A stretch of 64,000 bases of DNA, taken from the NCBI GenBank assembly GCA_038729425.1, contig JAVYSB010000005.1, forward strand, positions 1 through 64,000, in the 5' to 3' direction. Shown here one piece after another: positions 16,079 to 56,428 of this stretch; positions within the stretch are counted from its first letter, which is position 1, and the number at the start of each line of letters is the position of its first letter. A program made the translations under genes and the position numbers. The stretch is from Thermoplasmataceae archaeon (GTDB lineage: Archaea; Thermoplasmatota; Thermoplasmata; Thermoplasmatales; Thermoplasmataceae). The notes below the pieces were generated by a model. The model saw nothing but the letters and a program-made list of their open reading frames with translations, searched no databases and had not been told where the DNA came from.

Positions 16079-16146
16079 GGTTTTGATTATTGCACATCCC
16101 ACTTTAAAATGGAAACATCAAACTCTGATATGTGGGTAAATATACA

Positions 16147-16155
16147 TTTATATAA
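16147..16155 (+). promoter_or_regulatory. TATA box of the type IV secretion-like cluster
   Basis: TTTATATAA centred about 25 bases before the ATG at 16176. Spacing fits a leaderless archaeal transcript covering the four following genes. Confidence 0.65.
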
Positions 16156-16175
16156 CTCATAAATGTAGTATAATA

Positions 16176-16466
16176 ATGGCATCTTTTACCCATATTGGTA
16201 TGGTTATTCTATCATCAGTTATCAGCGGAACGGCTCAGCTATCAGGGGCGATGTCCAGACTGCTGGATGTAGTAGTATCACTGTCGGCTGTGATCATAGC
16301 ACTCTTATGGATCCCAATAGCACTGAGTTTCTTCAGCACTGACGAGAACAGGAAATTCGAAGCCAGAGGGAGGCTGAGAAATGCCCTTATAGGAACCTTA
16401 ATTTATGTTCTGGCTGTCAGCGGCGTGATTTACGCTATTTTCAACTACATAGCGCTGGGTCAGTAA
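16176..16466 (+). CDS. VirB2/CedA1-like small two-helix membrane protein
   Basis: 96 residues: a weakly hydrophobic N-terminal segment, a strong membrane helix at about 29-53 (SRLLDVVVSLSAVIIALLWI), a short charged loop rich in Arg/Lys/Glu (NRKFEARGRLRNA), and a second helix at about 70-94. This hairpin with a basic loop is the topology of VirB2-type pilins and of CedA1/TedC in crenarchaeal DNA-import systems. The sequence is too short and divergent to prove homology; the call rests on topology plus the VirB6-like and VirB4-like neighbours. First gene of a tight four-gene set; the next start is 1 base after its stop. Confidence 0.6.
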   Translation: MASFTHIGMVILSSVISGTAQLSGAMSRLLDVVVSLSAVIIALLWIPIALSFFSTDENRKFEARGRLRNALIGTLIYVLAVSGVIYAIFNYIALGQ

Positions 16467-16467
16467 C

Positions 16468-17529
16468 ATGATTCCATTTCTGGCGGATATTCCAAAAGTA
16501 CTCTCTGCGGTAATATACCTAGCTGACGAGGCATACGTCGGTCTAATAGGTGTTTTCTGGTACTTCCTGGTGAAATTTGGCCTCCAGCCTTCTTATTCAT
16601 TCCCTGACATGGGGTCTAACATTCCACTTATGGGGTTCTACTCTTTCCTCTTCAACAATCTATATGTCGAGTTCGCATCGATTGCCATTGTGTTTGCGGC
16701 TATGATCCTAATGTTTACCTCTTACGCCAACAGCGGGCGTGCGTATTGGACAATAGTGTCGCGATTTTCAGTGAGTGTAATATTGTTCGTTGGTTCCATG
16801 GAGATAACACAGTTTATTATCGGGTGCACTTCTTATGCCTTTGATTCCGTATGGTCATATGGATCGATCAACTGGTACAGCCTTCTGTCAGTCACTAACA
16901 TATCATCAAACCTCATAACCCCAGTTTCCCAGGTAAGCGCATCAAACTCTTTAGTTGAATTCTTCTTGCTCAGTTGGCTGTTTGTGGCAACATTCTCCCT
17001 TATGAGCATGCTCATTGTTCGACAAGCCATTATGATCTTTCTTTCCTTGATTCTCCCTCTCTTCAGCCTTCTGTTCATGACGGACAGTACTTCTAAACTA
17101 CCCGTGAAGCTCTGGATTTTATACATTGAATCGTCCATACTTCCCTTCTTTGTAATGATAATACTGGTTCTTGTTCATATTTTCTATTATGATTTTCTCT
17201 TGCAGATAGGTTTTCTTTCGCTTGCCGTATTGTTGCCTACCGTACTCATGTCAAACTCCCTTGTCTACAGGTTTTCCTCATTCCAGTCAATGTATGGCGA
17301 AATGTCTGCAGGATCCGTGCTCTCGGGAATCGGCACTCAGGGAGGATACATTCGTGCTATAATGTCAGGGGATTCCAGTGTTTCAAGTGCCGGAAATATG
17401 CTTTCATATCCTTTATGGAATAAAGATAAGGGGAGCTCTGGGCCACTCAAAGTGAAGGATCATTCCAAAGCCGGCATCGACTGGAAAAAAATCGAGGATG
17501 AGAAATTGAAATACAGGCGAGAATGGTGA
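16468..17529 (+). CDS. VirB6/CedA-like polytopic membrane channel protein
   Basis: 353 residues with about six or seven hydrophobic segments. The strongest are near residues 18-38, 65-85, 95-115, 165-205 and 215-260. A soluble polar C-terminal tail (about 270-353) is rich in Gly/Ser and then Lys/Asp/Glu. The segment MLIVRQAIMIFLSLILPLFS resembles the core of VirB6/TrbL-type channel proteins. In Ced/Ted and bacterial type IV systems this protein forms the inner-membrane conduit. Position between a VirB2-like and two VirB4-related genes supports the call; the family cannot be confirmed without profile searches. Confidence 0.6.
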   Translation: MIPFLADIPKVLSAVIYLADEAYVGLIGVFWYFLVKFGLQPSYSFPDMGSNIPLMGFYSFLFNNLYVEFASIAIVFAAMILMFTSYANSGRAYWTIVSRFSVSVILFVGSMEITQFIIGCTSYAFDSVWSYGSINWYSLLSVTNISSNLITPVSQVSASNSLVEFFLLSWLFVATFSLMSMLIVRQAIMIFLSLILPLFSLLFMTDSTSKLPVKLWILYIESSILPFFVMIILVLVHIFYYDFLLQIGFLSLAVLLPTVLMSNSLVYRFSSFQSMYGEMSAGSVLSGIGTQGGYIRAIMSGDSSVSSAGNMLSYPLWNKDKGSSGPLKVKDHSKAGIDWKKIEDEKLKYRREW

Positions 17530-17535
17530 TTTGAC

Positions 17536-18264
17536 TTGACTGGAAGCAGCACCGATAAGATCCCGGCAAATGTGAGGAACATCAGACCGAGAATCGGTGG
17601 GATCGATGCCAGGAAGATTTCCTCGCTCATAGCAACGCTGATGGTATCCCTTTTGATTTTACATTACAATCCCCTTTTGTCCATAATTTTTGCTGTTGGA
17701 GGAGTGATTTTATCTCTTATGCCTTCGGAAGAGGGGTTTTTCCCGGGCACGATCGGACAATATTTGCGAACCGAATTAAAACGAAAATCCGGTACGCTAA
17801 AACTGGAATACCATGTGGACTGCGTGGATGGCATTTGCACAGTCTTAAAAGGGAAGTTAATGTTCGCAATTGCAACGCTTAAAGGTTTACCTGCTCAGAT
17901 GTTGTCATATGAGGAATCCTTTTCTGAAACTGAAATGATATCGTCGATTATTGACAAGCTGTACTCGAGAGTTAGTTTTGTTGCATATAGCGAAATGCTT
18001 GACGTGAGCAGTTATATCATTAAAGAAACAGATGATGATTCTTTGGACTATAATGGCCTGGTTTCTTATATCTTTGAGGATGTAAGATACTATAGATCCT
18101 TTTTACTGTTGAGTGTGGACACCTTAATAGACTTCTCCAGATCTATGAATCTTCTGAGGAAAGACTGTGAAACCTTAAGAGAAGGATTGAAAAGATCTGG
18201 TATAGAAATAGCATTTATGTCGGACATTTCCGAAATAGGAAGGTTACTAGGGAGGTCTCTTTGA
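17536..18264 (+). CDS. PrgI/VirB3-like membrane segment fused to a VirB4 N-domain-like region
   Basis: 242 residues starting at TTG 17536, with GGTGAT 5 bases upstream as ribosome binding site. After a short basic N-terminus come two close hydrophobic segments (about 28-62, ISSLIATLMVSLLIL then a second), the PrgI/VirB3 pattern. The rest is soluble and lacks any Walker motif. It has the alternating strand/helix pattern seen in N-terminal domains of VirB4-type ATPases: a CVDGICTVLKGKLMFAI strand pair, a long helical stretch, then a YYRSFLLLSVDT strand. It would therefore supply the part missing at the front of the following ATPase. The assignment is structural inference. Confidence 0.5.
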   Translation: MTGSSTDKIPANVRNIRPRIGGIDARKISSLIATLMVSLLILHYNPLLSIIFAVGGVILSLMPSEEGFFPGTIGQYLRTELKRKSGTLKLEYHVDCVDGICTVLKGKLMFAIATLKGLPAQMLSYEESFSETEMISSIIDKLYSRVSFVAYSEMLDVSSYIIKETDDDSLDYNGLVSYIFEDVRYYRSFLLLSVDTLIDFSRSMNLLRKDCETLREGLKRSGIEIAFMSDISEIGRLLGRSL

Positions 18265-18312
18265 TAATTTTCGAGGAAGAGTGATAATATATCAAATGAC
18301 AGGTCAGAAAGA

Positions 18313-19899
18313 GTGGAGTTTCGTTACTTACTGGATGGTCCGCAAATCAAGATTGAAAATAACCATGCCATAATTACTCTGGCTGACTCAGATTACGGTT
18401 CGCCTTTTCTTTATTGCACGCTGCTTGAGGCAGCAAATGTTCAGGCTAGTATAGCTGTCGAAACAAAAAAAATAGCGGATAATAACTCTGATAAGTTGCT
18501 CAAGAGGTTGCACGCTTCAAGAAGGTCAGAGATGAGATATGTTGAGAAGAGGGACAGATCAAGATATCTGAAGTTGTCAAGGCATGCAGAAGCCCTTGAG
18601 AAAATGCTAAAAAAATCTGTCAGTGGTCTGAAAATATACGATATCAGGTTTCGACTGGTTGTAACTGCTAATCATCCTGTGAAACTCTCACATATTGTTT
18701 CAAGGATACTGGAGTCAACGAAATATATTGGACTCTTTTTTAAGCTAGAAAAGAATATGTCACGAAATGACGTAGTTGCTCTGTTACCACCATACACGAG
18801 TGAGAAATATGGATATATTATGGATTCACAATCCCTTTCAAGCATGCTGCCAATTCATTTCGAGCAGATCCCGAATAAAACCGGAATAATTTTTGGTGTA
18901 GATGATATTAGTGAAAAGCCCGTTATAATTGATATTTTCAGCGAAAATTCTTACAATGTCCTGCTATTTGGCGAGTCTGGGTCGGGCAAGTCATTTTTGT
19001 CAAAGCTGATCATCCGTCGATCTCTAGTCAGGGGAAACGCGGAACATGTCCTGATTATAGACCCATTAGGGGAATATGGTTCTCTTTCCGCAGCAGCCAA
19101 TCCATCTACGGTGAGTGTCGGTAAGGGAGATTATATTGATCCGCTTAGGTTATCCGGAGGCAGCGTGGATTCTGCTGATGCTGTACTATCCATGTTGATA
19201 CAGTTTGATAATCATATAGAAGAAGACTCTGCACCTTTGAGGAGAGATCTAATCAACTATCTGAAAACCTGTTCTTCCTGCTGTTTTACCGGTTTCGTAG
19301 AATATCTGAAACGTTCTGGAGCGTCATATTATTCTGTGACAGCAATAGAAAGACTCGCAAGCAATGTGTTGATAAGGGAAGTTCCCCTGAATATAAATGG
19401 TTCAATAACCATCATCAGGACTCCGCAATTTGTTGACAGGTCAAACGAGGCATCCGTTGTTTCCGTTCTTGTTTCGTTATTTTCCGCTATATCTTCTCTG
19501 CCAGGCAGGAAAATTGTGGCTATCGACGAAGCACACATATTTCTTGGCAATGAAGCCTGTTCGGTTATAATGGACATGATCGTCCGGCACTCAAGGCACT
19601 ATAACACTTCAGTAATGAGTCTCACGCAGAATCCGGATGACTTTTTTCTCAATCCGCGATCCCATTCTATTCTGCTTAACAGTTCTAAGGTTTTTGGATT
19701 CAGAACCAAATCAGAGAACATTTCAAATTACTCAATTTCTGGAGCAGACAGAGTGCGTGAGGTAGATTTCAAAAACCTCATGGGAGGCAGGAATGATGCA
19801 TATTCACAGTGCCTGCTGTTCTCTGATGGACGCGTAAGAAAATTGAGAATACTCTGTACAGAGAAGGAAAAATCTGTCATTGATGAAAAGAAAGCCTAG
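18313..19899 (+). CDS. VirB4/CedB-like conjugation ATPase
   Basis: 528-residue HerA-VirB4 superfamily motor. Residues 1-150 form the VirB4-type N-domain (a Glu/Arg-rich helix near 67-100 and an RFRLVVTAN strand). The ATPase has Walker A GESGSGKS at 220-227, VLIIDPLGEYG near 246-256, Walker B IVAIDEAH at 401-408 and the sensor SLTQNPDDFF near 434-443. These are hallmarks of VirB4/TraC/CedB ATPases that drive pilus or DNA transfer. Start is a GTG at 18313. Last gene of the cluster; a small membrane protein gene converges from the other strand 2 bases later. No relaxase or coupling protein is visible nearby. Confidence 0.85.
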   Translation: MEFRYLLDGPQIKIENNHAIITLADSDYGSPFLYCTLLEAANVQASIAVETKKIADNNSDKLLKRLHASRRSEMRYVEKRDRSRYLKLSRHAEALEKMLKKSVSGLKIYDIRFRLVVTANHPVKLSHIVSRILESTKYIGLFFKLEKNMSRNDVVALLPPYTSEKYGYIMDSQSLSSMLPIHFEQIPNKTGIIFGVDDISEKPVIIDIFSENSYNVLLFGESGSGKSFLSKLIIRRSLVRGNAEHVLIIDPLGEYGSLSAAANPSTVSVGKGDYIDPLRLSGGSVDSADAVLSMLIQFDNHIEEDSAPLRRDLINYLKTCSSCCFTGFVEYLKRSGASYYSVTAIERLASNVLIREVPLNINGSITIIRTPQFVDRSNEASVVSVLVSLFSAISSLPGRKIVAIDEAHIFLGNEACSVIMDMIVRHSRHYNTSVMSLTQNPDDFFLNPRSHSILLNSSKVFGFRTKSENISNYSISGADRVREVDFKNLMGGRNDAYSQCLLFSDGRVRKLRILCTEKEKSVIDEKKA

Positions 19900-19901
19900 G
19901 T

Positions 19902-20192
19902 TTATTTTGTTCTGGGAAACCTCTCTTGGGCATACATGAGCGTTAGGATACCAAAAACGAAGACGGGAACGACAAACGAGTAAAGTCCAATATCTGTCCA
20001 TGTGCCGTAAACAATCGACCAGCCCACATAAAAAGTCGCCCCTATAACAATCAGGGCAAGACCCACAAATCTGACTACGTTTGGAAGTGTGATCAATCGA
20101 GCAGCGTCCCTGATCCCTTCCGTTATCCTTTTATTATCTGACAATGTCGTTTCCGTTTGCAGAAATACGAGAGAATAATTAATTGTTTCCAT
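19902..20192 (-). CDS. Small two-helix membrane protein, unknown function
   Basis: 96 residues. The first 37 are polar; then two hydrophobic segments (about 38-60, FVGLALIVIGATFYVGWSI, and 67-88, IGLYSFVVPVFVFGILTL) and a short basic C-terminus. No family recognised. It faces the VirB4-like gene tail to tail with a 2-base gap and is divergent from mptD across about 70 bases. It may be an accessory of the secretion-like cluster or simply a neighbour. Confidence 0.6.
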   Translation of the reverse strand: METINYSLVFLQTETTLSDNKRITEGIRDAARLITLPNVVRFVGLALIVIGATFYVGWSIVYGTWTDIGLYSFVVPVFVFGILTLMYAQERFPRTK

Positions 20193-55825: not shown

Positions 55826-55936
55826 GTTTTCACGTCCAGAAAAGTACAAAGGTTGATTTGACAATCCTATTAAACGTTTTCTGAACGTTTCCGACTTCAA
55901 AAATAGGCTTATCGAACAACACTCCAGGATTGAAGT

Positions 55937-56428
55937 TTACGAATCGCCTATTTCCTTCCTGATCCGGCTGAGTCCTTCAAGACGTATTTTTCTCCTTGCT
56001 TCAGCCTCTTCAAAACGCTTTTTCTCATCTTCGGTCTCGACGATCAAACCGGGGATATCAGTGGGTCTCCCATCTTGATCCACCGCAACATATGTGAGAT
56101 ATGCCTTGGTTGCGAAGTGTTCAGCTCCCGTGAGCCCTTCCTGAGAAATAACATCAACTTCAATCTCCATCGTCGTCCTAGTAACGTAATTAACCCTCCC
56201 CTGCATCTTAACGATATCCGCAAGATGAATTGGCGAAAGGAAGTAAAGGCTGTCAATACTGCCCGTAACTGCTCTCCTCCTGCCATGTTTTATCGCAACA
56301 ATTGATGCCACATTATCTATCCACTCCACGAGTCTTCCACCATAAAGAGCATTGAAAATATTAGTATCTGCGGGTAGGACAAGGCGTTCCATGGTTGAGA
56401 ATGACTCCTCGCATTTCTTTGAATCCAT
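55937..56428 (-). CDS. Hotdog-fold acyl-CoA thioesterase
   Basis: 163 residues, YciA/BACH-like acyl-CoA hydrolase family. The conserved stretch VLPADTNIFNALYGGRLVEWID carries the active-site Asn/Asp region (the N-x-x-G-x-x-x-G-G pattern). Then VTGSIDSLYFLSPI and the strand MEIEVDV follow. A charged C-terminal helix (EDEKKRFEEAEARRKIRLE) extends beyond the domain. Physiological acyl chain is unknown. Confidence 0.88.
   Translation of the reverse strand: MDSKKCEESFSTMERLVLPADTNIFNALYGGRLVEWIDNVASIVAIKHGRRRAVTGSIDSLYFLSPIHLADIVKMQGRVNYVTRTTMEIEVDVISQEGLTGAEHFATKAYLTYVAVDQDGRPTDIPGLIVETEDEKKRFEEAEARRKIRLEGLSRIRKEIGDS

Follow-up and report, generated by a model that had tools for sequence, protein, structure and literature searches.

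Analysis of a 64,000-nucleotide stretch of DNA from a Thermoplasmataceae archaeon (contig JAVYSB010000005.1 of assembly GCA_038729425.1; hereafter the window) indicated that four consecutive genes at positions 16176–19899 probably specify a type IV secretion system (T4SS), domesticated and pared down to a minimum, that would act as a euryarchaeal counterpart of the Ced and Ted systems in the cell-to-cell exchange of DNA. The distribution of the pilin among related genomes and the constancy of gene order place the existence of the cluster far beyond chance.

Assignment of the four gene products

The four open reading frames, all intact, lie on the forward strand with intergenic gaps of 1, 6 and 48 bp, and encode proteins of 96, 353, 242 and 528 amino acids (aa) respectively, thereby substantiating an earlier sequence-only reading in which they had been described as nearly abutting genes on the same strand. 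The source genome is a 1.45 Mb assembly of 15 contigs that is 96.5% complete.

Gene 4 (18313–19899, forward strand, GTG start) encodes a VirB4 ATPase that comprises the remaining part of a VirB4 N-terminal domain plus a RecA-like motor. Scans against NCBIfam returned VirB4 NF045975 (E 2.8e-31), NF045971 (1.7e-23) and TraC-F TIGR02746 (4e-18), and the corresponding profile retrieved VirB4 4ag5 from the PDB (E 3.1e-14). The Walker A (GESGSGKS) and Walker B (IVAIDEAH) motifs are intact, as previously noted, and 14 relatives show no variation at the glycines and lysine of the P-loop or at glutamate E406 of Walker B; phylogenetic analysis placed the VirB4 proteins of the Thermoplasmataceae in a single clade with support of 100/100.

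Gene 3 (17536–18264, forward strand, TTG start) had been credited with a hairpin of the PrgI/VirB3 type, an assignment that could be refined, the sequence and model comparisons indicating that the predicted protein combines an N-terminal VirB3-like hairpin with the front of the VirB4 N-terminal domain. Its alignment matched the N-terminus of the fused B3–B4 proteins of relatives (hhalign probability 98.2, E 3.5e-14), PF05101 (VirB3) was recognised in 2 of 18 relatives (best E 7.7e-4), and both the topology of the hairpin and its position beside VirB4 are those expected. In the AlphaFold model (pLDDT 79) a membrane hairpin leads into an alpha/beta domain; the best query-normalised TM-score listed for it was that of VirB4/TrwK (8rtd_V, probability 0.99, TMq 0.41), and the top match by E-value was an ESX-3 chain (TMq 0.35). 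Alignment with PrgI was in register and weak (hhalign E 0.002–0.005).

The window genus and several other genera keep genes 3 and 4 apart; in Ferroplasma, Thermoplasma, Cuniculiplasma and others the two are fused into one protein of about 540–700 aa. Since a separate gene of 216–262 aa with the same layout also precedes VirB4 outside the Thermoplasmataceae (families f2, f3, f11 and f12), where it aligns with gene 3 (hhalign probability 95.8, E 6.8e-9), the separate arrangement is probably ancestral and the fusion derived. A fusion by readthrough in the window was considered and rejected: the two genes share a frame, but tandem stops (TGA TAA) and the 48-bp spacer intervene, and in the close relatives L105 and L106 the B3 and B4 genes occupy different frames.

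Gene 2 (16468–17529, forward strand) encodes a polytopic membrane protein with seven hydrophobic segments, which on the strength of its model is assigned with moderate confidence as a VirB6-like channel. When the AlphaFold model (pLDDT 70) was compared with 350,542 PDB chains, the top three matches were all R388 VirB6/TrwI, as the earlier description of a VirB6-like protein would lead one to expect, with scores that were weak (probability 0.93–0.98, E 0.04–0.07, TM-score about 0.3). A HMMER profile search of the PDB conducted with the VirB6 alignment gave no T4SS match, an NCBIfam scan of 14 VirB6-like proteins yielded nothing useful, and a pilin-like sequence of the kind reported within CedA was not found in the VirB6-like protein (hhalign probability 0.7).

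Gene 1 (16176–16466, forward strand) encodes a VirB2-like pilin with two transmembrane (TM) helices, an earlier proposal borne out chiefly through its relatives: PF18895 (T4SS_pilin) matched all 14 of those aligned (best E 6.8e-7), with the window copy itself falling below cut-off (E 0.004). Inspection of the alignment indicated that the pilins of the family begin at or just before the first TM helix, each being a bare hairpin with no N-terminal signal peptide evident. A TATA-type promoter element, TTTATATAA (16147–16155, forward strand), is situated 29 bp ahead of the pilin start codon; TTTATA starts at −29 in every member of the window genus examined, and 40 of 79 loci have a TATA-like element that starts 20–36 bp ahead of the presumed start codon of the pilin. 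Because of the position of this element at −29, the pilin probably opens a leaderless operon transcript.

Two variant forms of the pilin were recorded elsewhere. In loci of the I-plasma type (L148–L159) the pilin has an N-terminus resembling a signal peptide and a ribosome site of the GGGAGG type, whereas the window-family pilins are leaderless and signal-less. In L052 (13826–18703, reverse strand) the T4SS-pilin hairpin is the C-terminal part of larger proteins of 320–405 aa, four of which lie in tandem, and C-terminal hairpins of this sort also occur in L168 and L170; the sequences suggest pilins or anchors that carry large domains on the outside.

Such hairpins, which in family f12 as in L052 sit at the end of large proteins with big N-terminal domains, with as many as four copies in tandem, lend some weight to the alternative that the apparatus is an assembler of surface structures, whether a pilus or a pilin-anchored protein display for cell–cell adhesion, that transports no DNA. 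This alternative was judged improbable: the window-family pilin is a bare hairpin, no sampled genome of the family lacks the translocation components VirB6 and VirB4, and adhesion in Cuniculiplasma is already served by type IV pili (PMC12448462).

Distribution, synteny and inheritance

Related loci were retrieved with the pilin alignment, VirB4 alone having retrieved no relative in genome contigs. The pilin was thereby located in 71 of 77 Thermoplasmataceae genomes, in 34 of the 35 good genomes and in all 19 genera, and is single-copy in every genome that has it except one. In all 18 family genomes sampled VirB6 adjoins the pilin, and it occurs in further families of the Thermoplasmata. The sequence-only reading had recommended a check for synteny across relatives, and the order pilin–VirB6–VirB4 was indeed kept in all 76 loci compared, a set in which some genomes, fetched by two routes, are counted twice. 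The public loci include those of Ferroplasma acidarmanus Fer1, Thermogymnomonas acidicola, Acidiplasma aeolicum, Thermoplasma sp., Cuniculiplasma sp., E-plasma and I-plasma, and all 61 belong to the Thermoplasmatota or are filed as Euryarchaeota; no pilin relatives were found in viral contigs.

The recurrent neighbours of the operon are rpiA and a thioesterase gene upstream, and the genes for DHNA aldolase, an NTPase, trm1, ubiA and GGGPS downstream. VirB6 and VirB4 have diverged in step with DHNA, NTPase and Trm1 (Mantel r 0.93 over 27 loci; 0 of 2000 permutations). No PF03432 relaxase occurs anywhere in the source genome, and no integrase lies near the operon, the nearest being located on other contigs, which agrees with the earlier statement that neither accompanies the cluster. 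By virtue of its synteny, its housekeeping neighbours, this co-divergence and the lack of a nearby relaxase or integrase, the T4SS is fixed on the chromosome and vertically inherited in the family. As had been supposed, therefore, it is a chromosomal system, lying in most genera in the conserved core chromosome and outside mobile islands, and its membrane proteins are assigned to T4SS families.

That the cluster might be the remnant of an integrated conjugative element is suggested by the membership of its ATPase in a VirB4 family typical of conjugative plasmids. The family-wide synteny, the vertical descent and the absence of a relaxase or adjacent integrase led to the rejection of a mobile-element origin and, taken with the intact reading frames and the conserved promoter, leave a remnant of this kind scarcely credible.

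Comparison of the window with G110, a complete genome from within its genus, accounted for its lack of the usual upstream neighbours. The segment from 16.1 to 55.9 kb corresponds to a single 40-kb inversion: every gene from one breakpoint to the other is reversed with the order preserved, and those flanking genes for which a match exists keep their orientation. One breakpoint falls at 16079–16175, within the 97 bp that separate a PolB-exonuclease-like gene from the pilin and just before the T4SS promoter, and the other at 55901–55936, ahead of the thioesterase gene at 55937 that belongs to the thioesterase/rpiA pair normally flanking the T4SS. The inversion may be an assembly error; the comparison nonetheless places the operon in the core chromosome.

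In the same comparison the lowest conservation and the fastest evolution in the segment were those of B3 (36% identity) and B4 (46%), the median for the other genes being 72.5%, whereas the pilin is well conserved (79%). Rapid divergence relative to the neighbours, together with the fact that many bacterial T4SSs carry proteins, would accord with a system that delivers protein effectors against competitors or hosts. Such a role is nevertheless very unlikely, as no effector or immunity genes lie beside the operon, its usual neighbours are housekeeping genes, and no defence-system components were recognised except for generic HerA/VirB4-like ATPase matches.

Coupling ATPase and probable direction of transport

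The observation that no coupling protein lies nearby proved correct for the operon itself, to which no VirB1, VirB8 or coupling protein genes are linked, but a VirD4/TrwB-type ATPase is present on another contig of the same genome. This 659-aa protein (L184:561–2540, contig C1) matches PF10412 (TrwB_AAD_bind, E 2.5e-15), and its gene forms the tail of an archaellum operon, the genes of which were recognised by inspection. The source genome contains no above-cut-off match to the T4SS-DNA_transf coupling protein, and no ComEC.

The unlinked ATPase, relatives of which occur in 16 of the 19 genera, is an argument for a fixed T4SS that instead exports donor DNA in a form of chromosomal conjugation with this ATPase as its coupling protein, and in Cuniculiplasma a TraG/TraD/VirD4 ATPase has been listed beside the T4SS cluster (PMC5155288). 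This was considered unlikely, though slightly less so than the surface-assembly alternative. No relaxase is present, the ATPase gene is attached to the archaellum operon, and none of the 10 genomes of the Ferroplasma genus, to which F. acidarmanus belongs, encodes the ATPase, nor do the 2 and 3 genomes respectively of genera g2 and g64; nearly all of these genomes keep the T4SS pilin. Since Ferroplasma-genus genomes retain the T4SS and not the ATPase, the T4SS evidently persists in the absence of a VirD4-type coupling ATPase. Import is the mode that accords with an apparatus free of a coupling protein on the donor side, Ced and import T4SSs being comparable in this respect, and the absence of the ATPase from the Ferroplasma genus accordingly favours a Ced-like mode. 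The best reading is thus an exchange of chromosomal DNA in which import is likelier than export.

Comparison with known systems

The Ced and Ted systems have been described from the Sulfolobales/Desulfurococcales and the Thermoproteales respectively (PMC9905601). The window locus resembles Ted (TedA, TedB and TedC) in having a pilin gene followed by the gene of a VirB6-like pore with seven TM segments, a VirB4 ATPase, a chromosomal location and no relaxase; the Ted hallmark of a pilin gene succeeded by the 7-TM TedA gene has its parallel in B2 followed by B6 throughout the 76 loci. It differs from Ted in its euryarchaeal lineage, in the contiguity of all its genes, in the possession of an additional VirB3/VirB4 N-terminal domain gene, and in its pilins, since TedC has a cleavable signal peptide that the window-family pilins lack, a signal-like N-terminus occurring only in the relatives of the I-plasma type.

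With Ced of the Sulfolobales (CedA, A1, A2, B, D and E) it would share a VirB6-like pore and a VirB4-type ATPase; the two-helix topology of its predicted pilin agrees with that of the unprocessed pilin CedA1, and the 6–7 TM segments of the CedA channel are comparable with the seven hydrophobic segments and VirB6-like model of gene 2. The VirB4 N-terminal domain is moreover distributed over two proteins, a division between CedB and CedD having been proposed for Ced (PMC11868833). In the window, however, the division is sequential, the front half residing with the VirB3 hairpin and the rest with the motor, rather than between two paralogous ATPases. Moreover, the window VirB4 falls far below the cut-off of the CedB model NF041017 (32 versus 700 bits; E 5.3e-8). 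The parallel with Ced and Ted drawn in the sequence-only reading holds for composition, to which an order of pilin before pore like that of TedC and TedA can be added, but does not extend to membership of the CedB family, and the term 'Ced/Ted-like' denotes resemblance and not membership.

VirB4, a VirB3/PrgI-like protein, VirB6 and the PF18895 pilin are likewise found in the monoderm conjugative T4SSs of the MPF_FATA (PrgI/PrgJ) type and in Patescibacteria T4SSs, from which the present locus differs by its lack of a relaxase, of linked VirB1 and VirB8 and of a linked coupling protein; the link to PrgI is weak.

The nearest precedent is a cluster in Cuniculiplasma divulgatum (CSP5_1185-1189 / CPM_1190-93), comprising VirB4 (arCOG04034), a membrane protein (arCOG05340), a multipass protein (arCOG05369) and a membrane protein confined to the Thermoplasmatales, which Golyshina et al. 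(2016) named in one sentence as 'type IV secretion components' (PMC5155288). From its content and order, and not from locus tags, it is almost certainly orthologous to the window locus. That report lists the cluster without a function, a family-wide distribution, an analysis of the split and fusion or a link to Ced and Ted; it was the only paper that a search of the open literature for the arCOG numbers of the cluster retrieved, and a literature search turned up none linking the Thermoplasmatales to Ced or Ted. The window T4SS consequently extends a known kind, a T4SS cluster having already been named in Cuniculiplasma in 2016.

Proposed mechanism and significance

From the recorded gene content, homology, gene order, promoter, distribution and vertical inheritance we infer a pilus, a DNA cargo, a direction of transport and a physiological role as follows. 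The pilin would polymerise from the membrane into a lipid-containing tube linking two wall-less cells, VirB6 would form the membrane pore, the VirB3-like hairpin would dock a VirB4 hexamer onto that pore, and ATP hydrolysis by VirB4 would power both pilus assembly and the movement of DNA. The likeliest cargo would be chromosomal DNA of a sister cell, probably imported single-stranded, for recombination and repair, as has been proposed for Ced and Ted. Support for the exchange of DNA comes from Ferroplasma, in which type I and type II populations recombine heavily (PMC2704941) and Fer1 and Fer2 are devoid of type IV pilus genes (PMC3750248).

Several considerations tell against this interpretation. 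The pilin and VirB6 assignments depend on a sub-threshold profile and weak structural scores, the HMMER pilin profile retrieves no solved conjugative pilus from the PDB, and the score of gene 4 on the CedB model is low (vide supra). Unlike many Ted loci, the operon has no recombination genes beside it (no HerA, Rad50 or ParA neighbours). The genus-level absence of the coupling ATPase is no proof of direction, and the apparatus might instead carry protein, or make a pilus that functions solely in adhesion.

A wider proposal can be put forward only tentatively, as one a little more apt to fail than to hold: that this is a third archaeal DNA-exchange machine of the Ced/Ted type, ancestral to the Thermoplasmatales and with relatives across the Thermoplasmata, which operates with no relaxase and, in Ferroplasma, with no VirD4-type ATPase, and which is responsible for the heavy recombination of natural Ferroplasma populations. 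To our knowledge, Ced and Ted have been described only from the Thermoproteota ('Crenarchaea'), and fixed machines are known experimentally only there. If a euryarchaeal family has such a counterpart throughout, passed on vertically, domesticated conjugation machines for the exchange of chromosomal DNA would be an older or a repeated archaeal invention; the operon also offers a concrete gene set to examine for the unexplained recombination of acid-mine-drainage Ferroplasma. With four parts in one operon, or three genes in lineages with the B3–B4 fusion, serving wall-less cells with a single membrane, the system would also be close to the smallest possible T4SS.

A small convergent neighbour

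A gene for a small 2-TM protein (19902–20192, reverse strand) converges on virB4, the two stop codons being 2 bp apart. It was found beside virB4 in the window, in 10 loci of an initial sample of the family, and in 46 of the 76 loci overall. The gene was not found in the Ferroplasma group; it is linked to the operon in most genera, and in Thermoplasma it stays with virB4 despite different surroundings. The protein carries the motif FYxxWSIxYxTWxDIGLYSF, and is a possible fifth subunit of the apparatus.

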